A stretch of DNA of 64,000 nucleotides from Acetohalobium arabaticum DSM 5501 (GTDB taxonomy: Bacteria; Bacillota; Halanaerobiia; Halobacteroidales; Acetohalobiaceae). Both the position numbers and the translations under genes were made by a program. The stretch covers positions 718,781 to 782,780 of the forward strand of contig NC_014378.1 of NCBI RefSeq assembly GCF_000144695.1, read 5' to 3'. The notes beneath the pieces were generated by a model that saw only the letters and a list, made by a program, of their open reading frames with translations, was not told the DNA's origin and did not search any database. The first letter of the stretch is position 1, and every line of letters begins with the position of its first letter. Positions 21,968 through 33,463 of the stretch are shown here, piece by piece.

Positions 21968-22098
21968 TAAGTACAGATTAGTAGGAATAATCACCTCACT
22001 TTTGTAGATACTAAAAATAGGATTCTTAAAAAGAGGGATTTAAAGCTGAATACAGAAAAAATAGGAATAACTCTTTTTAAATAAAGGATTGATTATTG

Positions 22099-22854
22099 AT
22101 GTCCCTCTATAAAACAGAAGCAATAGTATTGAAGTACTATGAACTGAAAGAAGCCGATAAGATTATTGTTTTATATACTAGACAACACGGTAAGGTACAG
22201 GCTGTGGCCAATGGTGCACGAAAGACAAAAAGCCGTTTGGCTGGCAGCGTGGAGCTGTTTACTTACAGCGACTTTCTGCTTTATCAAGGTAAATCCTTAT
22301 CTACTATTAGCCAGACTGAAATTATAAACTCCTTTGCTTCTCTGCGGGATGACCTCTTTAAGATGGCCTATGCTTCCTATGTAGTCGAGGTAGTTAATGA
22401 GTTTACAGTCGATGAAGAAAAGAATGAACCGCTCTTTGCTCTTTTATTGGCAACACTTTATATGTTAGATAGAGGAGAAGAGTTAGAACTGGCTACTAGA
22501 TTCTTTGAGTTAAGACTTCTTAATTTATTGGGGTATCGTCCTCAACTAGATGCCTGTGTTGATTGTGATCTGGATTTAGCTAAAATAGATAAAGTTAAGT
22601 TCAGCTCAAAGCTAGGCGGAGTAGTCTGTGCTGACTGTGCCCTAGAGGATCAGTATGCTATGCGGATTAATAAAGGAACAGTAGCTACTATGGAGCGTTT
22701 ATTGGAAATAGATTATAAAAAATTGGATAGATTGAAGGTGCCTGAAAGCACAAGACAGCAATTGGCTAAAATACTTCCTAATTATTTACAATCAATTATT
22801 GAAAAGAAATTAAAGAGTTTAGACTTTCTTAAAACATTAACTATGACTAATTAA
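22099..22854 (+). CDS. recO: DNA repair protein RecO
   Basis: RecO loads RecA on single-stranded DNA in the RecFOR pathway. The N-terminal OB fold (YKTEAIVLKYYELKEADKI, VANGARKTKSRLAG) and the zinc motif made of CVDCDL and CADCAL near residues 155-180 are visible. The 251-residue length is normal. I chose ATG 22099 over TTG 22096; aaagga lies at 22083-22088. It begins a conserved Firmicutes order with glyQS. Confidence 0.94.
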   Translation: MSLYKTEAIVLKYYELKEADKIIVLYTRQHGKVQAVANGARKTKSRLAGSVELFTYSDFLLYQGKSLSTISQTEIINSFASLRDDLFKMAYASYVVEVVNEFTVDEEKNEPLFALLLATLYMLDRGEELELATRFFELRLLNLLGYRPQLDACVDCDLDLAKIDKVKFSSKLGGVVCADCALEDQYAMRINKGTVATMERLLEIDYKKLDRLKVPESTRQQLAKILPNYLQSIIEKKLKSLDFLKTLTMTN

Positions 22855-22874
22855 TACTGAAGAGAGGTGAGATA

Positions 22875-23264
22875 ATGCAGGATATAAACCAGCAGTTAGA
22901 GAAGATAGATCTGATCAGAGAGCGGACTAAAGCCAGCTATCGGGAGGCTAAAGAAGCATTGGAAGCAGCAGATGGTGATGTTCTGGAAGCAGTTGTCAGA
23001 TTAGAAGAGGAGGACTTGAACCATAAAAAAGAGTTTCAGGTAGCCGGTAGTAAATTGATAGAAAAGATAAAGGAACTGATTAAGAAAGGAAATGTAACTA
23101 AGATTCTGGTTAAGAAAGATGGAGAGATTATCTTTAGTCTTCCAGTAACTGTTGGAGTAATAGGAACAGCCTTCTATCCACCGCTGGCAGTTTTAGGCTT
23201 AGCAGCTACCTTAGTAGGTCAGTATACTCTGGAAGTAGAGTATAACGAACCAACAAGAAAGTAA
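22875..23264 (+). CDS. DUF4342 protein with UBA/TS-N-like domain
   Basis: This 129-residue protein has an N-terminal UBA/TS-N-type three-helix motif (LIRERTKASYREAKEALEAADGDVLEAV) as in the start of EF-Ts, followed by a C-terminal half with a hydrophobic segment (LPVTVGVIGTAFYPPLAVLG) that could be a membrane hairpin. It matches DUF4342 proteins, whose role is unknown. An agaggtgag ribosome site precedes ATG 22875. It sits between recO and the glycine T-box. Confidence 0.78.
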   Translation: MQDINQQLEKIDLIRERTKASYREAKEALEAADGDVLEAVVRLEEEDLNHKKEFQVAGSKLIEKIKELIKKGNVTKILVKKDGEIIFSLPVTVGVIGTAFYPPLAVLGLAATLVGQYTLEVEYNEPTRK

Positions 23265-23271
23265 GTTTCTA

Positions 23272-23300
23272 TTGACAATGGAAGTTGAGTCTGATATATT
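23272..23300 (+). promoter_or_regulatory. Promoter of the glyQS T-box operon
   Basis: TTGACA (23272-23277) and TATATT (23295-23300) are separated by 17 nt, directly upstream of the T-box leader. Confidence 0.8.
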
Positions 23301-23306
23301 TATATG

Positions 23307-23530
23307 TAAAATTAATATTAGCTGTGATGAAGAAGAGGAGTAGCTAAATGTGGCTATTACAGCGAATCAGGGATAGTGGAAGCCTGATGTAGTCAGTTTA
23401 GTGAAAGGCGCTTTGGAGCAGACTTCATGAGTGAATTATCTACTTTAAGATGGATAATTAATCAGGGTGGAACCGCGGGAAACCTCGTTCCTGATAGCTG
23501 TTGCTATCAGAAATGAGGTTTTTTGATTTT
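23307..23530 (+). ncRNA. Glycine T-box leader (riboswitch) of glyQS
   Basis: The T-box signature TGGAACCGCGGG lies at 23468-23479, preceding a strong terminator hairpin (aacctcgttcctgatagc paired with gctatcagaaatgaggtt, then T-run at 23519-23524). The conserved stem I segment with GAAGCCTGAT is at about 23380, and a GGC triplet at 23407-23409 in a GAAAGGCGC context is the likely glycine specifier. The A after TGG matches a Gly tRNA discriminator U. Uncharged tRNA-Gly would stabilise the antiterminator and raise glyQS expression. Confidence 0.88.
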
Positions 23531-23561
23531 TAATATTATTTCTTAAGGAGGAATAGTTGAG

Positions 23562-24449
23562 ATGAATTTTCAAGATATGATTCATGCCTTGAATGAATTC
23601 TGGGCTGAACAGAAATGTATTATCAAGCAGCCTTATGATATTGAAGTAGGAGCAGGAACAATGAATCCGGCTACTACACTGCGTGCTTTAGGGCCTGAAG
23701 ATTGGAATGTAGCATATGTAGAGCCCTGCCGCCGTCCGGCTGATGGCCGTTATGGTGAAAATCCTAATCGCTTACAGCATTATTATCAATACCAGGTGAT
23801 TATGAAGCCGTCACCACAAAAGATTCAAGAGATTTATTTGGATAGTTTAGAGGCTTTAGGGATTGATCCGGCCAAGCATGACATCCGCTTTGTAGAGGAT
23901 AACTGGGAATCGCCTACTCTAGGTGCCTGGGGTTTAGGCTGGGAAGTCTGGTTAGATGGTATGGAGATTACTCAGTTTACTTACTTTCAGCAGGTAGGAG
24001 GCTTTGATGTCAAACCGGTCTCTGTTGAGATTACCTATGGGTTAGAACGAATTGCAGTCTATTTACAGGAAGTAGACAGCGTCTTTGATATCGAATGGGT
24101 TGATGGTATCAGTTACGGCGATGTACATCATCAAGGCGAAGTAGAACATTCTACTTATAACTTTGAAGTAGCAGATATCGATAAGTTATTAACCTTCTTT
24201 GATCTCTATGAAGAAGAGGCCAAGCAGGCTATAGAGGAAGACTTAGTTCTGCCGGCTTATGATTATGTATTGAAGTGTTCACATACCTTTAATTTACTGG
24301 ATGCCCGGGGAGCAATCAGCGTAACAGAACGAACTAGCTATATTAAGCGGGTTAGAGATCTTGCTAATCTATGTGCTAAGGCCTATCTAGAGCAGCGGGA
24401 AAGATTAGGCTATCCGTTAATGAAGGAAGGGAGGAGAGAGAATGAGTAA
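23562..24449 (+). CDS. glyQ: Glycyl-tRNA synthetase alpha subunit
   Basis: GlyQ is the catalytic subunit of the alpha2-beta2 class II synthetase. Its 295 residues include [17 protein letters not shown], the [17 protein letters not shown] segment, [16 protein letters not shown] and the class II motif 3 region [16 protein letters not shown]. The length is normal. It overlaps glyS by 8 nt, and it is controlled by the T-box at 23307-23530. Confidence 0.97.
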
Positions 24450-26526
24450 CAATAAACTATTATTAGAGATTGGAACTGAAGAGATTCCGGCTGGGTTTAT
24501 GGAGCCTACCTTTGAACAGTTAGAGGAACTAGCAGCTGAATTATTTAAACAGTATCGGATTGAGACTGGTTCAGTAGCTACTTATGGTACCCCCCGCCGG
24601 TTAACTCTTGTAGTTAATGAAGTCAGCAGCCGTCAGGATGATTTAACCAAGGAGGTTAAGGGTCCTGCTAAGAATATTGCCTTTGATGATGAAGGTAATC
24701 CGACAAAAGCCGGAAGTGGATTTGCTAGAGGACAGGGACTTACAGTTGATGAGTTAGAGATTAGGGATACTGATAATGGTGAGTATCTATTTGCTGTTCA
24801 GACTGAGGAAGGAAAACCGACAGAAGAGTTACTGCCTGAGATTTTAACAGAATTAATTCATGATTTGGATTTTGCTAAATCCATGCGCTGGGCAGATAAA
24901 GATATGCAGTTTGTAAGACCGATTCACTGGATTCTAGCTCTCTATGGGGATGAACCGGTGGAGTTAGAAGTAGCAGATATAGAATCTGATACATATACCA
25001 AAGGCCACCGTTTTTTGAGTACAGGCCAAATAGAGATAGATTCTGCCCAGGATTATTTTGATAGATTAAATGAAGAATATGTGATTGTTGACCAGAATAA
25101 ACGCAGAGAGATGATTATTGACCAGATTACTGAGTTAGGTAAAGAAGCCGGGGGAGAAGTTTTGATTGATGAAGATCTGTTAAAGGAAGTTAATTATTTA
25201 GTAGAGTACCCGACAGCTTTGATGGGCAGCTTTGATGAAGAATTTTTGGACCTACCGCGTGAGGTATTAATTACTTCTATGCGTGAACATCAGCGCTATT
25301 TCCCTATCGAAGATGATAATGGAGATCTGATGGCACGTTTTATTACTGTCAGAAATGGTTCTGAAGATCATATTGATATCGTAAGAGAAGGAAATGAAAA
25401 GGTACTTAGGGCCCGATTAGCTGATGGAATGTTTTTCTATGAAGAAGATCAAAAGGAGGATCTAGAGGATAAAGTCGATGAACTGAAAAATGTTATCTTC
25501 CAAGAGGATTTAGGAACTATATATGAGAAGGTAAAACGGTTAGTTGAATTAAGTAAAGTATTTGCTAAAAAGTTAGATTTAAGTGAAAAGGAGGTTAAGG
25601 ATAGTAAACGGGCAGCTTATTTATCTAAAGCAGATTTGATTACTGAAATGGTTATTGAGTTTCCTAAGCTAGAAGGAGTTATGGGCCGTGAATATGCTAA
25701 GTTATCAGGTGAGAATAAAGCTGTAGCAGATGCTATCTTTGAACATTATCTACCGCGCTATGCTACTGATGTTCTGCCTCAGACTAAGACTGGACAGATA
25801 GTAAGTATTGCTGATAAAATAGATAATATTGTTGGTTGTTTTGGCGTCGGTTTGATTCCAACCGGTTCTCAAGATCCTTATGCACTGCGGCGGCAGGCCC
25901 AAGGAATTGTAAAGATTATTCTAGACTCTGATTTAAAGCTTAATTTAGCCGGGTTAATAGATAATGTTTTGGAACTATTGGTTGAAGCAGAGAAGTTAAA
26001 ACGCAGTCAGGGTGAGGTCAAGACTGAAGTTCTGGACTTCTTTAAACAGCGCCTAGAACATATATTTGAAGAGAGAGGAGTTAGGTATGATGTTTCTAAT
26101 GCAGTCTTAGCTACGGATATTACCGACCTCAATGATGCAGTTAAACGGGCTGAAGCTGTAATGGAGTTTAGAAATGAAGAAAAATTTGAAGATTTACTTA
26201 CTGCGTATAATCGTGCTGGTAATCTGGCAGACAAGGCTACTAGTGAAGATATTAACCCTGATTTATTTACTGATGAATCTGAAGAAAAGCTATATGAAGC
26301 ATATCAATCTACTCAAGCAGAAGTGGAAGAATTACTAGTAGCTAAGGATTATTCTTCTGCTTTAGATGAATTAGCAACTCTGCAAAAGCCGGTTGATAAG
26401 TTCTTTAATTCGGTAATGGTAATGGCCGATGATGAAAAAGTAAAGAATAATCGTTTAGCTCTGTTGAAGAATACTGTTCAGATCTTTACTAAGATAGCTG
26501 ATCTGTCTGAGATTGTGATTGATTAA
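24442..26526 (+). CDS. glyS: Glycyl-tRNA synthetase beta subunit
   Basis: This 694-residue subunit has the usual start ([17 protein letters not shown]), the FAKSMRW segment, the HD-type domain with [43 protein letters not shown] and a C-terminal anticodon-binding region. The start overlaps the glyQ end by 8 nt. It completes the synthetase. Confidence 0.97.
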
Positions 26527-26555
26527 GCAATTTAGAATCGGGAGTGATGACTAGC

Positions 26556-27359
26556 ATGTCCAAAGCTTTGGCCTTTATAGTCTCTGATTCTATTGGTGAG
26601 ACAGCACGTCAGGTAGTAGAAGCAGCAGCAACCCAATTTAATAGCACCACAGCTGTAGAGTTTAAAAGCTTTTCTTATGTTACAGATAATGATGATGTAT
26701 CAAAAGTAATTGATGAAGCCCGGAATCAAAGAAGTATAATTGCTTTTACGTTGATTAATCCTGACTTAAGAGAGTATTTGAAGACGGAAGCAGTCAAGGC
26801 GGATATTGAATATGTAGATATTATGGGACCGATGATGGAAGCTTTAGGGAATGTTCTAGATAAAGATCCTAAATTACAGCCCGGGTTAGTAAGAGAATTA
26901 GATGAAGAGTACTTCAAAAAAGTAGATGCTATTGAATTTACTGTTCAGTATGATGATAGAAATGATATTGAGGGAATTAAAGAAGCAGATATAGTCCTAG
27001 TTGGTGTCTCTCGAACTTCAAAAACGCCGATGTCTATCTACCTTTCTTACCGCGGATATAAGGTAGCCAATATACCATTGGTTCCTGAAGTAACACCGCC
27101 CAAAATTCTGTATAACAATCCTGATCATAAAGTAATTGGTTTGACAATTGATTCGGAGACTCTAAATGAAATTAGACAGGAAAGATTAAAAACATTAGGT
27201 TTGAATATGAAGTCTGATTATGCTTCTTTAAGCCGGATTACTGAAGAGTTAAATTATTCTTATAAGGTCTTTAATAGAATCGGCTGTCCGGTAGTTGATG
27301 TCAGCAATAAATCAGTAGAAGAATCTTCTAATACTGTATTAAAACTGATTCAAAAGTAA
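26556..27359 (+). CDS. PpsR-family bifunctional kinase/phosphorylase, paralogue 1
   Basis: Proteins of this family (DUF299) are ADP-dependent kinases and Pi-dependent pyrophosphorylases that switch pyruvate phosphate dikinase or PEP synthase off and on by modifying an active-site Thr. The 267-residue protein has FIVSDSIGETARQVVEAA at the start and the P-loop-like GVSRTSKTPMS near residue 150. ATG 26556 is 8 nt from ggagtga. It follows glyS closely, an order seen in many Firmicutes. A second paralogue is at 28253. Confidence 0.9.
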   Translation: MSKALAFIVSDSIGETARQVVEAAATQFNSTTAVEFKSFSYVTDNDDVSKVIDEARNQRSIIAFTLINPDLREYLKTEAVKADIEYVDIMGPMMEALGNVLDKDPKLQPGLVRELDEEYFKKVDAIEFTVQYDDRNDIEGIKEADIVLVGVSRTSKTPMSIYLSYRGYKVANIPLVPEVTPPKILYNNPDHKVIGLTIDSETLNEIRQERLKTLGLNMKSDYASLSRITEELNYSYKVFNRIGCPVVDVSNKSVEESSNTVLKLIQK

Positions 27360-27379
27360 TATATTATTAATTGTAATCA

Positions 27380-27406
27380 GCCCCTGGGTGTGTTGCAGGG
27401 GCTTTA
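27380..27406 (+). terminator. Weak intrinsic terminator after first ppsR
   Basis: A 7-bp GC-rich stem (gcccctg / caggggc) with a 9-nt loop is followed by only three T residues. It may end the glyQS transcript. Confidence 0.6.
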
Positions 27407-27585
27407 ATCATGTAACATAATTATTAAAAAAGATAAAAAAACAAGGAAAGTTGCAGGAGAAAGTAGATTTAATCTAGTATAATGTATGTGATAACCATTA
27501 AATGTGTTGTGTTTTTTTGGCTGTTTGCTTCAATAGTGCAACATATAAATAATGTAGCATATAAATGGAATAAGGAGGGATTGGG

Positions 27586-28236
27586 ATTAATTTAAGTGAT
27601 CGCCAAAGAAGAATAATTGAAATTGTAAAAAATAATGAACCAATTACCAGTAAAGAGATAGCCGATAAACTAGATTTAACTCGTAGTGCCCTCCGTTCAG
27701 ACCTATCTGTATTGACAATGGCTAAGATACTAGAAGCCAAACCACGGGTAGGATACTTTCATCTACAGGATAATTCTTATTTAGCAGAGATCAATAAATT
27801 ATATACTAAGGAAGTTGCCGAAGTTAAGTCAGTGCCGGTTGTAGTTACAGAGAAGACATCAATTTATAATGCAATTACGACTCTTTTTTTAGAAGATGTA
27901 GGTTCTTTGTTTGTAGTTGATGAAGAAGATAAGAATCTAGTTGGAGTTATATCCCGCAAGGATTTATTAAAGATCACTATTGGAGATGCTGATATCAATC
28001 AAGTGCCTGTTAGTGTAGCTATGACTAGAATGCCTAATATAATTACTATTCGGGCTGATGATACTGTTCTGCTGGCAGCTAAACGGTTAGTAAATTATGA
28101 AATTGATGCTTTGCCAGTCGTTGAGAATTTTATTGATGAGTCTGGAGAACCATTAGAAGATAAGCTGAAGGTGATCGGTAGGGTAAGTAAGACTAATATT
28201 ACGAGAGTCTTAGCAGATTTAGGATTAGAAATGTAA
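27586..28236 (+). CDS. ccpN: CcpN-family regulator (HTH plus tandem CBS) with an ATT start
   Basis: CcpN represses gluconeogenic genes. The frame from 27586 gives a complete N-terminal helix-turn-helix (LSDRQRRIIEIVKNN, EIADKLDLTRSALRSDLSVL), then two CBS domains (TTLFLEDVGSLFVVDEED, ISRKDLL, MTRMPNI, IDALPVVENF) as in Bacillus CcpN, about 216 residues in all. An in-frame stop lies at 27571, and between it and the HTH there is no ATG, GTG or TTG. A perfect AAGGAGG (27572-27578) lies 7 nt before ATT 27586. Starting at ATG 27718 (or TTG 27706) would delete the HTH. The gene precedes ppsR-2, glpX and ppdK, all linked to gluconeogenesis. Confidence 0.82.
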   Translation: MNLSDRQRRIIEIVKNNEPITSKEIADKLDLTRSALRSDLSVLTMAKILEAKPRVGYFHLQDNSYLAEINKLYTKEVAEVKSVPVVVTEKTSIYNAITTLFLEDVGSLFVVDEEDKNLVGVISRKDLLKITIGDADINQVPVSVAMTRMPNIITIRADDTVLLAAKRLVNYEIDALPVVENFIDESGEPLEDKLKVIGRVSKTNITRVLADLGLEM

Positions 28237-28252
28237 GGAGGAGAATAAGGCG

Positions 28253-29074
28253 TTGTTAAATAGAGTAGAGGATGAAGATTTAACTGTCTTTATTGTATCA
28301 GATTCTATTGGAGAGACAGCTGAAACAGTAGTTAATGCTGTAATAAGTCAGTTTGGTACTGATCAGATTGAAATTAAAAAGTTTACTAATATAACTAGTA
28401 TAGCAAAATTATCAGAAGTAGTTAGTAGAGCTAAAGATAGAAAAGTAATTATAGCCTACACTATAGTTTTACCTGAATTATGTGAGCACTTAAAAAAAGC
28501 GGCTAAAGCAGCAGAGATTCCGATTGTGGATGTTATAGGACCTGCTATGTTGAAGTTTTCAGAGTTATTGGGACAGAAGCCTAAGCTAGAACCGGGTTTG
28601 AATCGCCAACTTGATCAGGAGTATTTTGAACGAATTTCTTGTATTGATTATGCTATTAGATGTGATGATGGTAAAGAATTGAAAAAGTTAGAAGAAGCAG
28701 ATGTAGTAATCATTGGTGTGTCCAGAACTTCAAAGACACCGCTGAGTATGTATCTAGCTCATCAAGGCTATAAAGCTGCTAATATTCCACTGATGCCGGA
28801 AGTAGATGTTCCTCAAGAATTATATGAACTGTCAGCTAAGAAATTAGTAGGTTTGACAATTGATCCTACTGTTTTACAGGAGATAAGACAGGAGAGGCTC
28901 AATTCTATGCAGTTTAAAAAGCAGGCTGATTATGCTACTATGGATAGAATCCTTAAAGAATTGGATTTTGCTGAAGAGATTATGAAAAAATTAGGCTGTA
29001 TGATTATTAATGTAACTAATAAATCTATTGAGGAGACAGCCCATAAGATATTATCTGAGAGGAGTGATTTATAG
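28253..29074 (+). CDS. PpsR-family pyruvate phosphate dikinase regulator, paralogue 2
   Basis: This is the second DUF299 bifunctional enzyme, 273 residues, with FIVSDSIGETAETVVNAVI and the nucleotide loop GVSRTSKTPLSMY intact. It starts at TTG 28253 after aaggagg (28235-28241) and a weaker aagg nearer. The stop overlaps the glpX GTG by 1 nt. Its position next to ccpN and one gene before ppdK makes it the better candidate for the dikinase regulator. It clearly diverges from the copy at 26556, and what the other copy modifies is unknown. Confidence 0.9.
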   Translation: MLNRVEDEDLTVFIVSDSIGETAETVVNAVISQFGTDQIEIKKFTNITSIAKLSEVVSRAKDRKVIIAYTIVLPELCEHLKKAAKAAEIPIVDVIGPAMLKFSELLGQKPKLEPGLNRQLDQEYFERISCIDYAIRCDDGKELKKLEEADVVIIGVSRTSKTPLSMYLAHQGYKAANIPLMPEVDVPQELYELSAKKLVGLTIDPTVLQEIRQERLNSMQFKKQADYATMDRILKELDFAEEIMKKLGCMIINVTNKSIEETAHKILSERSDL

Positions 29075-30057
29075 TGGAAAGAGAATTAGCATTAGAATTT
29101 GTACGAGTGACGGAGGCAGCAGCTTTAGCTGCAGCCCCCTGGATGGGAAAAGGCGATAAAGAGGCTGCTGATCAGGCGGCAGTTGATGCCATGCGGGCTA
29201 CCTTTGATACAGTTAATATTAAAGGAAGAGTAGTCATTGGCGAAGGAGAAAAGGATGAGGCTCCAATGCTGTATATTGGTGAAGAAATCGGTGGTGCTGA
29301 ATCTCCTGAGTTAGATATAGCTGTTGATCCAGTTGAAGGTACTACTCTGGTAGCTAAAGGGCTGCCTAACTCTTTGGCAGTAGTAGCTGCTGCTAAGAAG
29401 GGTAACTTACTTAATGCACCTGATATGTATATGAGGAAGATAGCTGTAGGATCAGAGGCTAAGGGAGCTATCGACTTAAAAGCCAGTCCCACAGAAAACT
29501 TAGAAGCTATAGCAGAAGCTAAAGACCAAGAAGTTTCTGATTTAACAGTTATTCTGCTTGACCGTCCTCGCCACGAAGAGATAATCGAAGAGATTAGAGA
29601 AGCAGGTGCTAGAATTAAGATGATTACTGACGGTGATGTAGCTGGTGGAATTGCTACTGCTCTACCCCATACCGGCGTAGATATGTTAATTGGAATTGGG
29701 GGAGCTCCCGAAGGAGTATTGGCTGCAGCAGCCTTAAAGTGTTTAGGCGGCGAGATGCAGGCGCAATTACATCCTCGTAATGATGAGGAAACTCAAAGAG
29801 CTATTGATATGAGTGGAATAGATGATATCAACAAAGTCTTTACTACTGATGATTTAGCAAAAGGTGAAGATGTAATGTTTTCTGTTACCGGTATTACTAA
29901 TGGAGAATTACTGCGTGGGGTTCAATACAGTGGTCAGAAAGCTGAAACCCAATCTATTGTAATGAGAAGCAAAACAGGAACTGTTAGAACTGTTAAAGCT
30001 GAACATAAGATTAAACAGAAGCCATCTTATTTTAGAGATGAGGTTATTAAATTTTAA
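29074..30057 (+). CDS. glpX: Class II fructose-1,6-bisphosphatase GlpX
   Basis: The 327-residue protein has the class II motifs: AAAPWMGKGDKEAADQAA, VVIGEGEKDEAPMLYIGEEIG, DIAVDPVEGTT, ITDGDVAGGIA, GIGGAPEGVLAAAALK. The metal-binding Asp and Glu residues are all there. It removes the C1 phosphate of fructose-1,6-bisphosphate, the committed step of gluconeogenesis. It starts at GTG 29074, overlapping the previous stop by 1 nt. Confidence 0.96.
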   Translation: MERELALEFVRVTEAAALAAAPWMGKGDKEAADQAAVDAMRATFDTVNIKGRVVIGEGEKDEAPMLYIGEEIGGAESPELDIAVDPVEGTTLVAKGLPNSLAVVAAAKKGNLLNAPDMYMRKIAVGSEAKGAIDLKASPTENLEAIAEAKDQEVSDLTVILLDRPRHEEIIEEIREAGARIKMITDGDVAGGIATALPHTGVDMLIGIGGAPEGVLAAAALKCLGGEMQAQLHPRNDEETQRAIDMSGIDDINKVFTTDDLAKGEDVMFSVTGITNGELLRGVQYSGQKAETQSIVMRSKTGTVRTVKAEHKIKQKPSYFRDEVIKF

Positions 30058-30078
30058 TTAAAAGGAGTTGATGATAAA

Positions 30079-32736
30079 ATGAATTCAGAAAAAAAGTATA
30101 TTTATTCCTTTGAAGAGGGTTCTTTGGATCTAAAGCCTATTTTAGGAGGTAAAGGTGCCAGTTTAGGTGAAATGACAAGTTTAGATCTGCCTGTCCCCCC
30201 CGGAATGACTTTAACTACTGAAGCCTGTAATCTATATTTTGAGAATGATGAAGAATTACCAGAATTTCTAAAAGAAGGTACTAGAGAGTATTTAAAAGAT
30301 TTAGAAGAGAAGACAGGTAAGAACTTTGGTGATGATAATAATCCTTTATTGCTGTCTGTCCGTTCGGGAGCTACAATTTCTATGCCCGGTATGATGGATA
30401 CTATTCTAAATTTAGGCTTGAATGATACTTCAGTTCAGGGATTGGCTAAAGAAGTAAATGATGAACGTTTTGCTTATGATTGTTATCGGCGTTTTATTCA
30501 AATGTTCGGAGATGTAGTGTTAGGTATTGAAGGCTACAAGTTTGGTCGGACCTTGGATAGTCTAAAAGAAGAAGTAGATGCAGATAGTGATTTAGATCTT
30601 ACTACTGACGACTTGAAAAAGTTAGTTGCTCAATATAAAGAGATAATCAAGGATGAAGCCGGAATTGAATTTCCCCAAGATCCCATGGAACAGTTGATTA
30701 AGTCTGTAGATGCTGTCTTTGGTTCTTGGAATAATAAACGGGCTATTGTTTATCGTGATGCCCATGATATTGCCCATGACTTAGGAACAGCTGTTAATGT
30801 TCAAACTATGGTCTTTGGTAATATGGGTAAGGATTCTGGAACAGGAGTTGTCTTCACTCGCAATCCATCCACTGGTGTTAATGAATTATACGGTGAGTAT
30901 CTATTGAATGCTCAGGGTGAGGATGTAGTAGCCGGAATTAGAACTCCGCAGTCGATTCAGACTCTTAAGGAAGAGCTACCTGAGGTCTTTGACCAATTAG
31001 TGGACGTGACTGAAACTTTAGAGGATCACTATAAGAATATGCAAGATATTGAATTTACTATTGAGAACGGCCAATTATATTTACTCCAGACCAGAACCGG
31101 AAAACGAACTGCTAAAGCAGCTATCAAGATGGCAGCTGATATGGCCGATGAAGGCTTAATTGATAAAGAGGAAGCTCTGCTCAGAGTAGAGCCGGAGCAT
31201 GTTGAGAAAGTATTACATAAGCAGATAGATCCGGAAGCTGAACCGGAAGTGATTGCTAAAGGTTTGCCTGCTTCGCCAGGAGCTGCTGCTGGGAAGGTAG
31301 TCTTTTCTGCTGATGAGGCTGAAAAGCTAGGTGATAAAGGAGAAAAAGTAATCTTAGTTAGTTTAGAGACAACGCCAGAAGATATCAATGGTGTTATTGC
31401 TTCCCAGGGGGTATTGACTACCCGCGGCGGTATGACTAGTCATGCAGCGGTAGTAGCTCGAGGAATGGGTAAGCCCTGTGTCTGTGGCTGTGAAGAGATC
31501 AAAATTGATTTTGAGAAGGAAGAATTTTTAGTCGGAAATCGTCGGTTTGAAAAAGGAGATAAGATTACTATTAATGGGGGAACCGGTGAAATCATGGTCG
31601 GTAAGGTAGAAATGACTGAACCCCGTCTTAGTGAAGAATGTCGTAAGATACTGAAGTGGGCTAATGAAACTAAAGAATTAGGAATTCGTGCCAATGCTGA
31701 TAATGGTCCTGATGCTAAAAAGGCTTTTGAGTTTGGAGCAGAAGGAATTGGCCTCTGCAGAACAGAACATATGTTCATGGCGGCTGAGAGAGTACCGTTA
31801 GTACAACAGTTAATTTTAAGTGATTCAGAGGCAGAGAAAGAAGAAGCTTTGGCTGAATTAGAGCCGATGCAGCGTAATGACTTTGAAGAGATCTTTACTG
31901 AAATGAAAGGAAAACCCGTAACAGTTCGACTCCTGGATCCGCCGCTCCATGAATTTTTACCTGATTTAGTAGAACTGGTAGAAGAGATAGCAAAGTTAGA
32001 ATCCGCCGCTGAAGATAATAAAGAAGAACTGAATAAGAAGCGAAAATTACTGCGGAAAGTAAAGGACATGAATGAGTCCAATCCTATGTTAGGCATGAGA
32101 GGATGCCGGTTGGGGATTATGGTTCCTGAAATTTATGAGATGCAGATTAGAGCAGTCTTTAAAGCTGCTGTTAATGTAGCTGAAGAAGGAATTGATGTTC
32201 AGCCTGAAATTATGCTACCGCTGGTTACTCATGTTAATGAATTTAAGATGCTGCGTAGCCGAGTAGATAAAGTAGCAGATGAAGTTTTGGCTGAAGCAGA
32301 TAGTGAGTTAAGCTATAAAGTAGGTACTATGATCGAACTGCCGCGGGCCTGCATGACAGCTGAGGAGATTGCTGAAGAGGCAGACTTCTTCTCCTTTGGT
32401 ACCAATGACTTAACTCAGACGACTTTTGGCTTCAGTAGAGATGATGCGGAAAGTAAATTCTTACATCATTATGTAGAAGAAGATATTCTGGAGGATAATC
32501 CTTTCATCAGTTTAGATCCTAACGGTGTTGGAAAGTTAGTTAAGATGGCTACTGATGATGGGCGAAAGGCAAATGAGAACCTGAAAGTTGGTATCTGTGG
32601 TGAGCACGGCGGTGAGCCGAAATCAATTGGTCTCTGCCAGGAATACGGTCTTGATTATGTTAGCTGTTCACCATATCGTGTACCGGTAGCACGCCTAGCA
32701 GCTGTTCAGGCTAAAATTGAAAGTGATAGAGAATAA
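30079..32736 (+). CDS. ppdK: Pyruvate, phosphate dikinase
   Basis: This 885-residue enzyme interconverts pyruvate, ATP and Pi with PEP, AMP and PPi. The ATP-grasp N-terminal domain (GGKGASLGEM, LLSVRSGATISMPGMMDTIL) is followed by the swivelling His domain with TRGGMTSHAAVVARGMGKPC, which holds the regulatory Thr and the catalytic His. The PEP domain shows GIGLCRTEHMF, GTMIELPRACMTAEEIA and CGEHGGEP with the catalytic Cys. The length is normal. The Thr of TSH is the target of PpsR proteins. A long palindromic terminator ends the unit. Confidence 0.97.
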   Translation: MNSEKKYIYSFEEGSLDLKPILGGKGASLGEMTSLDLPVPPGMTLTTEACNLYFENDEELPEFLKEGTREYLKDLEEKTGKNFGDDNNPLLLSVRSGATISMPGMMDTILNLGLNDTSVQGLAKEVNDERFAYDCYRRFIQMFGDVVLGIEGYKFGRTLDSLKEEVDADSDLDLTTDDLKKLVAQYKEIIKDEAGIEFPQDPMEQLIKSVDAVFGSWNNKRAIVYRDAHDIAHDLGTAVNVQTMVFGNMGKDSGTGVVFTRNPSTGVNELYGEYLLNAQGEDVVAGIRTPQSIQTLKEELPEVFDQLVDVTETLEDHYKNMQDIEFTIENGQLYLLQTRTGKRTAKAAIKMAADMADEGLIDKEEALLRVEPEHVEKVLHKQIDPEAEPEVIAKGLPASPGAAAGKVVFSADEAEKLGDKGEKVILVSLETTPEDINGVIASQGVLTTRGGMTSHAAVVARGMGKPCVCGCEEIKIDFEKEEFLVGNRRFEKGDKITINGGTGEIMVGKVEMTEPRLSEECRKILKWANETKELGIRANADNGPDAKKAFEFGAEGIGLCRTEHMFMAAERVPLVQQLILSDSEAEKEEALAELEPMQRNDFEEIFTEMKGKPVTVRLLDPPLHEFLPDLVELVEEIAKLESAAEDNKEELNKKRKLLRKVKDMNESNPMLGMRGCRLGIMVPEIYEMQIRAVFKAAVNVAEEGIDVQPEIMLPLVTHVNEFKMLRSRVDKVADEVLAEADSELSYKVGTMIELPRACMTAEEIAEEADFFSFGTNDLTQTTFGFSRDDAESKFLHHYVEEDILEDNPFISLDPNGVGKLVKMATDDGRKANENLKVGICGEHGGEPKSIGLCQEYGLDYVSCSPYRVPVARLAAVQAKIESDRE

Positions 32737-32760
32737 TAGATGGAATTTCAGTTTTCTAAA

Positions 32761-32789
32761 GGATAAGGCTTAAGCCTTATCCTTTTTTT
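32761..32789 (+). terminator. Intrinsic terminator after ppdK
   Basis: A perfect 22-nt palindrome (ggataaggctt and its complement) is followed by seven T residues. It ends the ccpN-ppsR-glpX-ppdK block. Confidence 0.9.
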
Positions 32790-32818
32790 CATACTTTTTC
32801 TTTTTGTTAAAGGAATTA

Positions 32819-32847
32819 TTGGAATTATCCTGTAATAATAATATAAT
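32819..32847 (+). promoter_or_regulatory. Promoter of the flavoprotein gene
   Basis: TTGGAA (32819-32824) and TATAAT (32842-32847) are 17 nt apart and lie 22 nt before the ATG of the flavoprotein. Confidence 0.7.
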
Positions 32848-32869
32848 AGTCGAAAGGAGTTGTTAATTA

Positions 32870-33463
32870 ATGTTGATTGCTGGTCTAAACGGTAGTCCAA
32901 ATAGCGATGGAAATACTGATCTTTTATTGAATAAAGCATTGGATGCTGCTAAAGATTTAGGAGCTGAAACAGAATTAATTCAGGTTTCATCCGGTTTAGA
33001 GGAGATAGAAGAGCCTTACTGTACTGCCTGTTCTCAGCCTTGTTCAAAAGCCTGTTATGAAGGAACTAAGTTAGAGGAACAGTATGAATTATTGTCTGAA
33101 GCTGACGGAGTGATTATTGGAAGTCCTGTCTATTTTGGGACTGTTAGTGCTCAGTTAAAGGCCTTTTGGGATATGACCCGTGATTTACGCGGCCAGAATA
33201 GTCTGTTAAATACTGTCGGAGGAACTATCACAGTTGGAGCAGCTAGATTCGGCGGTCAGGAAACTACTATAAAAGCTGTACATGATTTGATGCTGGTCCA
33301 GGGTATGATAGTTATAGGTGATGGAGATAGTGAAACTGATGCCGGACATCAGGGGGCAGCAGGACAGCGGAAAGCAGCTGAAGATGAGAATGCTCAAAAG
33401 AGGGCCAAGACTGTAGGAAGAAGAGTAGTGAAGGTAGCAGAAGCAACAGAGAGTCTGCGGTAA
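32870..33463 (+). CDS. Flavodoxin-fold NAD(P)H-dependent FMN/iron-sulfur reductase
   Basis: This 197-residue protein has the FMN-binding start LIAGLNGSPNSDGNTDLLL, a Cys cluster CTACSQPCSKAC near residue 51 that resembles the iron-sulfur flavoprotein type, and GSPVYFGTVSAQLKAFWDM. A four-cysteine motif like this can bind a 4Fe-4S cluster. The likely role is electron transfer or oxidant defence in an anaerobe; the partner is unknown. ATG 32870 follows aaaggag. Confidence 0.85.
   Translation: MLIAGLNGSPNSDGNTDLLLNKALDAAKDLGAETELIQVSSGLEEIEEPYCTACSQPCSKACYEGTKLEEQYELLSEADGVIIGSPVYFGTVSAQLKAFWDMTRDLRGQNSLLNTVGGTITVGAARFGGQETTIKAVHDLMLVQGMIVIGDGDSETDAGHQGAAGQRKAAEDENAQKRAKTVGRRVVKVAEATESLR

Follow-up and report, generated by a model that had tools for sequence, protein, structure and literature searches.

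We conclude that the ccpN gene of Acetohalobium arabaticum starts with the rare codon AUU, as a sequence-only reading of this DNA had proposed and as comparison with relatives has confirmed. The gene was studied in a window of 64,000 nt, the whole stretch that was analysed, corresponding to positions 718781-782780 of a single-contig genome of 2,469,596 bases (Table 1). The explanation that very probably holds combines initiation at AUU 27586 behind a strong Shine-Dalgarno (SD) sequence, a conserved weak-start design, a low output that would depend on the stringency of start-codon selection, and feedback through an operator. The elements read directly from the DNA are the position of the codon, its conservation, its start-like substitutions, the compensating SD and the operator sequence.

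The protein read from ATT scored 278.1 bits against NF053704 ('transcriptional regulator CcpN', an NCBIfam equivalog with a cut-off of 260). Passing this curated threshold identifies it as a full-length CcpN, which bears out the identity suggested by the sequence-only reading, and it is the sole full-length CcpN match genome-wide. A domain search placed two CBS stretches C-terminal to the helix-turn-helix (HTH), giving the HTH plus CBS-pair architecture, and the CBS structure of B. subtilis YqzB (3fv6) matches residues 70-212. A role as repressor of gluconeogenic genes is predicted from membership of the family.

After TAA 27571 the frame runs GGA GGG ATT GGG ATT(27586) AAT TTA AGT GAT, and direct reading of the sequence found no in-frame ATG, GTG or TTG between this stop and TTG 27712. 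The AAGGAGG motif is separated from ATT by a 7-nt spacer (27579-27585). All the coordinates given for this start by the sequence-only reading that we checked were correct, including the SD 7 nt before it and the lack of an in-frame ATG, GTG or TTG from 27571 to the HTH. That reading had also named ATG 27718 as the first downstream start; the position is correct, but TTG 27712, inside the HTH, precedes it. A mechanical ORF caller reported a truncated 174-aa ORF from 27712, and initiation there or at ATG 27718 would give a product without most of the HTH. We regard this as scarcely credible: the HTH_11 domain starts well before 27712, an SD lies at 27572-27578, and the frame upstream of the 27712-equivalent is conserved as protein in 289/289 loci, with NF053704 matching from profile position 1.

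The window was scanned for ATH codons that lie ahead of any canonical codon in open frames still having 80 or more codons to run (37 on the + strand and 89 on the - strand). ATT 27586 was the only one with a duplex energy of -10 or below that also lay far (42 codons) from a canonical codon, and it is thus not a chance occurrence; the only other match, on the - strand, directly preceded a canonical start. Duplex energies were calculated against a presumed anti-SD sequence.

Table 1. Coordinates of ccpN and associated features in the window
Feature	Position	Strand	Remarks
ppsR1, second ppsR paralogue upstream of ccpN	26544..27359	+	GTG/ATG start; ORF list
Hairpin after ppsR1, possible terminator	27379..27403	+	fold -16.4 kcal/mol, z -2.87; pattern scan gave no entry
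Possible -10 element TATAAT of ccpN promoter	27478..27483	+	direct reading; promoter scan gave no entry (no fitting -35)
First tandem operator-like site, AATAGTGCAACATATAAA, diverged	27532..27549	+	WRTATRDCAYA core at 27535, 2 mismatches; PWM rank 24 in window
Second tandem operator-like site, AATAATGTAGCATATAAA, diverged	27548..27565	+	core at 27551, 1 mismatch; PWM rank 4 in window
Shine-Dalgarno AAGGAGG	27572..27578	+	direct reading; duplex energy -14.5 vs anti-SD
ATT start codon	27586..27588	+	no in-frame canonical codon from TAA 27571 to TTG 27712; homologous codon AUH in 215/275 loci
ccpN coding sequence from ATT	27586..28236	+	216 aa plus stop; NF053704 match and direct reading
HTH_11 domain (Pfam PF08279)	27601..27756	+	residues 6-57, E 3.5e-11
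ppsR2 (PPDK regulatory protein)	28253..29074	+	TTG start; VSDSIGETA motif

On the + strand the ORF list gives the order glyQ, glyS, ppsR1, ccpN, ppsR2, glpX, ppdK. Names other than ccpN are presumptive, assigned from the sequences, that of ppsR2 resting on its VSDSIGETA motif as well. The SD of ppsR2 and the ccpN stop codon overlap. With ppsR1 and ppsR2, ccpN has a ppsR paralogue on either side, and a locus of the same genus (L095) likewise has two frames.

Homologues were collected by a search of genome contigs for related loci, which yielded 368 relatives (80 kept), and by draws from the order, the phylum and one class. The order draw placed 12/13 genomes above the NF053704 cut-off. An even draw over the phylum yielded CcpN at E <= 1e-40 in 91/149 genomes, all 91 of which were read. 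A draw from the class of genome G149 found CcpN in 133/151 genomes at 136 places, three genomes holding two; we read 110 of these places, namely those with a locus and 80 hand-picked over families, and omitted 26. Loci L001-L008 and the weak non-CcpN matches L101-L118 had been omitted beforehand. Removing 14 duplicates from the 289 pooled loci, all of which contain a CcpN frame, left 275 distinct CcpN loci. Below, AUH stands for AUU, AUC or AUA, and NTG starts are ATG, TTG or GTG.

The codon homologous to ATT 27586 was ATC in 120 loci, ATT in 49, ATA in 46, ATG in 32, TTG in 18, GTG in 8, GCT in 1 and TTC in 1; in the last two loci an ATG lies one codon later (L197) or two codons earlier (L309). 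AUH thus occupies the position in 215/275 loci, in 65/91 loci and 37/52 family codes of the even phylum draw, and in 94 of the 110 places read in the class draw (136 in total). B. subtilis-like loci carry ATC (the CcpN proteins of L208 and L119 are 95% and 90% identical to structure 3fv6), and a second species of the same genus also has ATT, behind a different spacer. As judged from these alignments, an AUH start proves to be the norm for ccpN across Bacillota, not an oddity of one genome. The sequence-only reading had called an ATT start unusual for this repressor: the start is real, but its rarity does not hold for ccpN. Since 58/275 loci have ATG, TTG or GTG, the weak start is not indispensable. 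Among the three genomes with two ccpN genes (L214/L302 in G284, L217/L304 in G171 and L216/L289 in G238), two pair a TTG-start copy with an ATT-start copy.

A normal start might instead have been lost through a sequencing or assembly error: with a single G inserted behind TTG 27581, that TTG would be in frame. The TTG would lie only 2 nt from the SD, and among the 13 genomes of the order draw 12/12 CcpN genes that pass the cut-off have ATT at the homologous codon, the opposite of the normal start in relatives that the sequence-only reading had linked with such an error. We give an error practically no chance.

Substitutions at the position follow those of a start codon. Where the codon was not isoleucine, it was ATG, GTG or TTG in 58/60 cases, compared with 385/1307 at internal Ile-dominant columns (p = 2.5e-27), so that the place behaves as a start codon rather than as an internal isoleucine. 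The SD was stronger before AUH (median duplex energy -13.2, n = 215) than before NTG (-10.65, n = 58; p = 5.5e-12, loci treated as independent). On a FastTree tree, at least 19 changes between AUH and NTG states and at least 70 codon changes were required, and parsimony counted about 40 AUH-AUH, 12 AUH-to-NTG and 9 NTG-to-AUH changes. The last two numbers are similar, which counts against the explanation favoured here. Third-base changes to G were about 7/47 vs 599/1894 at fourfold sites (p = 0.016), so that changes to AUG are under-represented, by a modest test based on a parsimony count over the FastTree tree. AUH codons replaced one another less rapidly than codons did at four internal Ile columns, each of which had 90-98 changes. 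Across the aligned loci, the start is held within AUU, AUC and AUA in most lineages, which is a conserved design of ccpN in Bacillota. AUC was over-represented among AUH starts (120/215 vs 933/2818 internal Ile codons).

In many relatives a GTG overlaps the SD and could be the true start instead, with the window as a degenerate case; such a start would presumably give N-termini such as MSTIELNKRQ. In 141/215 AUH loci a canonical in-frame codon does occur within 21 nt upstream, mostly a GTG inside GGTGGTGA and most often at -9 or -12; in 9/215 the only such codon is farther upstream than 21 nt, and 65/215 have none back to the stop. This GTG belongs to the SD itself, and its frame varies, which argues that it is not the start: 119 loci have its first base at -9, whereas 60 have it at -10, a register in which TGA can come next in frame. 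The nearest in-frame stop lies at -9 in 41 loci. The window has no such GTG, the start-like replacements described above fall at the AUH place, and in S. aureus the initiation peak mapped by Ribo-Ret sits at AUA (PMC13009471). An SD-embedded start is therefore very improbable; like the truncated start and the sequence error, it is rejected on the relatives' codons, frame and SD evidence. Initiation at AUU 27586 is the reading that we retain.

Other genes were examined by the same means. Loci in which no canonical codon occurs from the upstream stop to a conserved motif numbered 62/275 for ccpN and 22/217 for ppsR, with none among 138 ppdK, 29 dnaG and 7 glpX genes (n only 7 for the last). An SD-based start caller returned AUH for 70/217 ppsR, 0/138 ppdK and 0/7 glpX; the one dnaG call (1/29) was located at the motif itself and is spurious. 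The gene ppsR failed as a negative control because it has AUH starts itself, and ppdK, dnaG and glpX were used instead. Each of the 22 ppsR genes that lack an alternative was called AUH, 21 of them with a duplex energy of -10 or stronger, for example gggagggaagaacc ATT (L211) and ttaaggagggcggtatcc ATT (L026). They come from several groups, including Desulfotruncus, Desulfoscipio, a Heliobacteriaceae MAG and genomes of the class draw. By these sequence calls, AUU, AUC or AUA starts seem to be present in about one third of ppsR genes in many lineages. An apparent AUH-type ppsR downstream of ccpN occurs, for example, at L026, L041, L072, L073, L155, L210-L212, L225, L227, L228, L255 and L301. 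An exchange of AUH starts between ccpN and ppsR from lineage to lineage was considered and rejected (Fisher p = 0.10, no tree-aware association): with AUH ppsR calls whose SD was weaker than -8 dropped, the ccpN/ppsR combinations were AUH/AUH 50, AUH/NTG 121, NTG/AUH 19 and NTG/NTG 25.

The AUH start of ccpN is of a kind already known by experiment from S. aureus. Kohl et al. 2026 mapped initiation of S. aureus ccpN to AUA by Ribo-Ret and stated that the ccpN start is conserved with B. subtilis (PMC13009471). The two cases share the gene, a near-cognate AUH start and a strong extended SD; they differ in that AUA was established there by Ribo-Ret and reporters, whereas AUU in Halanaerobiales comes from comparative sequence alone. 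The infC gene, which encodes IF3, resembles ccpN in having AUU or AUA after a strong SD, and the likeness drawn by the sequence-only reading extends to the same genome, whose infC reads aggaggtgtgtaataATTAGTAAC. Present in 13/13 order genomes, infC could be placed in frame by its motif in 12/13, and most other copies in the order have ATTAGT after the SD (for L326 the available stretch stops short of the infC start). It is controlled by feedback of IF3 on its own gene (PMC13009471), but IF3 is an initiation factor and CcpN is not. A further parallel is Streptomyces sigR, a transcription regulator whose non-canonical start limits its own translation and whose GTC start is repressed by IF3 (Feeney et al. 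2017, PMC5472188). That start is GTC rather than AUH, in Actinomycetota, with IF3 dependence demonstrated there. For Lactobacillales, ccpN was predicted to be a target of its own product, in a regulon that also includes ppdK and fbp; the prediction covers autoregulation in that order, and the passages concerned make no mention of the start codon (PMC3616900). Our literature search, with most subscription journals outside its reach, found no further papers on CcpN start codons and no published AUH start of ppsR. New here are the breadth of AUH ccpN starts, the AUH starts of ppsR and, for many lineages, a CcpN operator upstream of ccpN.

In the proposed mechanism, ccpN would be translated from AUU 27586, decoded as (f)Met by initiator tRNA, with the strong SD helix keeping the ribosome at a start codon whose pairing with that tRNA is poor. 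The outcome would be little CcpN per mRNA, in an amount dependent on the stringency of start-codon selection (IF3, state of the initiator tRNA). Output tied to stringency means that CcpN could rise in good translation conditions, when gluconeogenesis should be repressed. We infer by analogy that initiation in A. arabaticum may behave like that at the S. aureus AUA, and likewise infer the link with IF3 and the feedback; control of ccpN through IF3 or nutrients is plausible.

The weak start may merely fix a constant low level of CcpN and sense nothing, a view to which we give slightly less than an even chance. Regulators are needed in small amounts, and SD strength follows the class of start codon, as though a target rate were being held. 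Two of three S. aureus non-AUG reporters, citZ (AUA) and cvfC1 (AUU), responded little or not at all to the medium, so a nutrient response is not general to such starts; against a fixed set point, the ccpN AUA reporter, which gave about 10% of the AUG level in RPMI (poor), reached up to 30% in BHI (rich) (PMC13009471). A weaker SD with AUG would give a low level too, yet AUH with a strong SD has been retained.

The genes infC and ccpN, joined in many lineages by ppsR, might form a 'weak-start' group in Bacillota, in which selected AUH starts would tie control of gluconeogenesis to start-codon stringency, with the level of IF3 or the formylation of initiator tRNA as a metabolic signal. We offer this tentatively and consider it rather doubtful. 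CcpN would act in this group on transcription and PpsR on PPDK activity. That two neighbouring regulators of one pathway have kept a weak start across most families raises the question of whether start-codon stringency carries metabolic information, and natural AUC, AUA, AUU, UUG and AUG versions of ccpN occur among the hosts compared. Since ordinary ORF calling skips AUH starts, many Bacillota risk having their CcpN listed as starting at a false GTG or as lacking the HTH.

Regions upstream of ccpN were searched for TRTGHYATAYW, the presumed CcpN operator consensus. Its reverse complement was found exactly in 93/242 regions vs 2.2 expected, clustering at -60 to -25, and the + strand form in 16/242 vs 1.7 expected. 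A PWM trained on 92 ccpN upstream sites gave sites above 14 bits before ccpN in 112/274 loci, the 92 training sites included, and scored 18-26 bits at pckA, a known CcpN target (PMC3616900, PMC7028823), in 19/19 loci from the family of G149. Such sites stood before 1/219 ppsR, 0/138 ppdK and 0/29 dnaG genes. Present at pckA and scarce before ppsR, ppdK and dnaG, the motif very likely represents the operator of CcpN, and transcriptional autoregulation of ccpN is probable for many lineages. The translational autoregulation suggested by the sequence-only reading finds no support in these data, in which it is operator sequence that precedes ccpN. The B. subtilis-like loci L119 and L208 have no CcpN operator before ccpN.

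In the window, ccpN is preceded by two tandem operator-like sites, 16 bp apart, between the possible -10 element and the SD. They match the lineage pattern exactly, a match that is partly circular since these sites and those of relatives served to define the pattern, and the two-site combination was found nowhere else in the genome. There is no strong match to the operator consensus before the window ccpN, nor is the motif enriched in the window, in its strict form (43 matches with at most one mismatch vs 63.6 expected) or its relaxed form (4 vs 3.9 expected). With a PWM rank no better than 4 as well, the operator claim for the window rests on the lineage-specific tandem sites. A CcpN operator would add transcriptional negative feedback to the weak start in many lineages, and would probably do so for ccpN in the window too.

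The hairpin after ppsR1 may act as a terminator, possibly separating ccpN from the upstream genes. A structured leader or riboswitch was rejected, with no Rfam family at 22000-33000 and a leader whose fold did not surpass those of shuffled sequences (z -0.29). In this lineage the CcpN operator seems to have moved from AGTATRDCAYA to AGTGYARCATA. The recognition helix region of the lineage's CcpN reads TRSALRSDL, a departure from TRATLRPDL, which we take to be the usual form.
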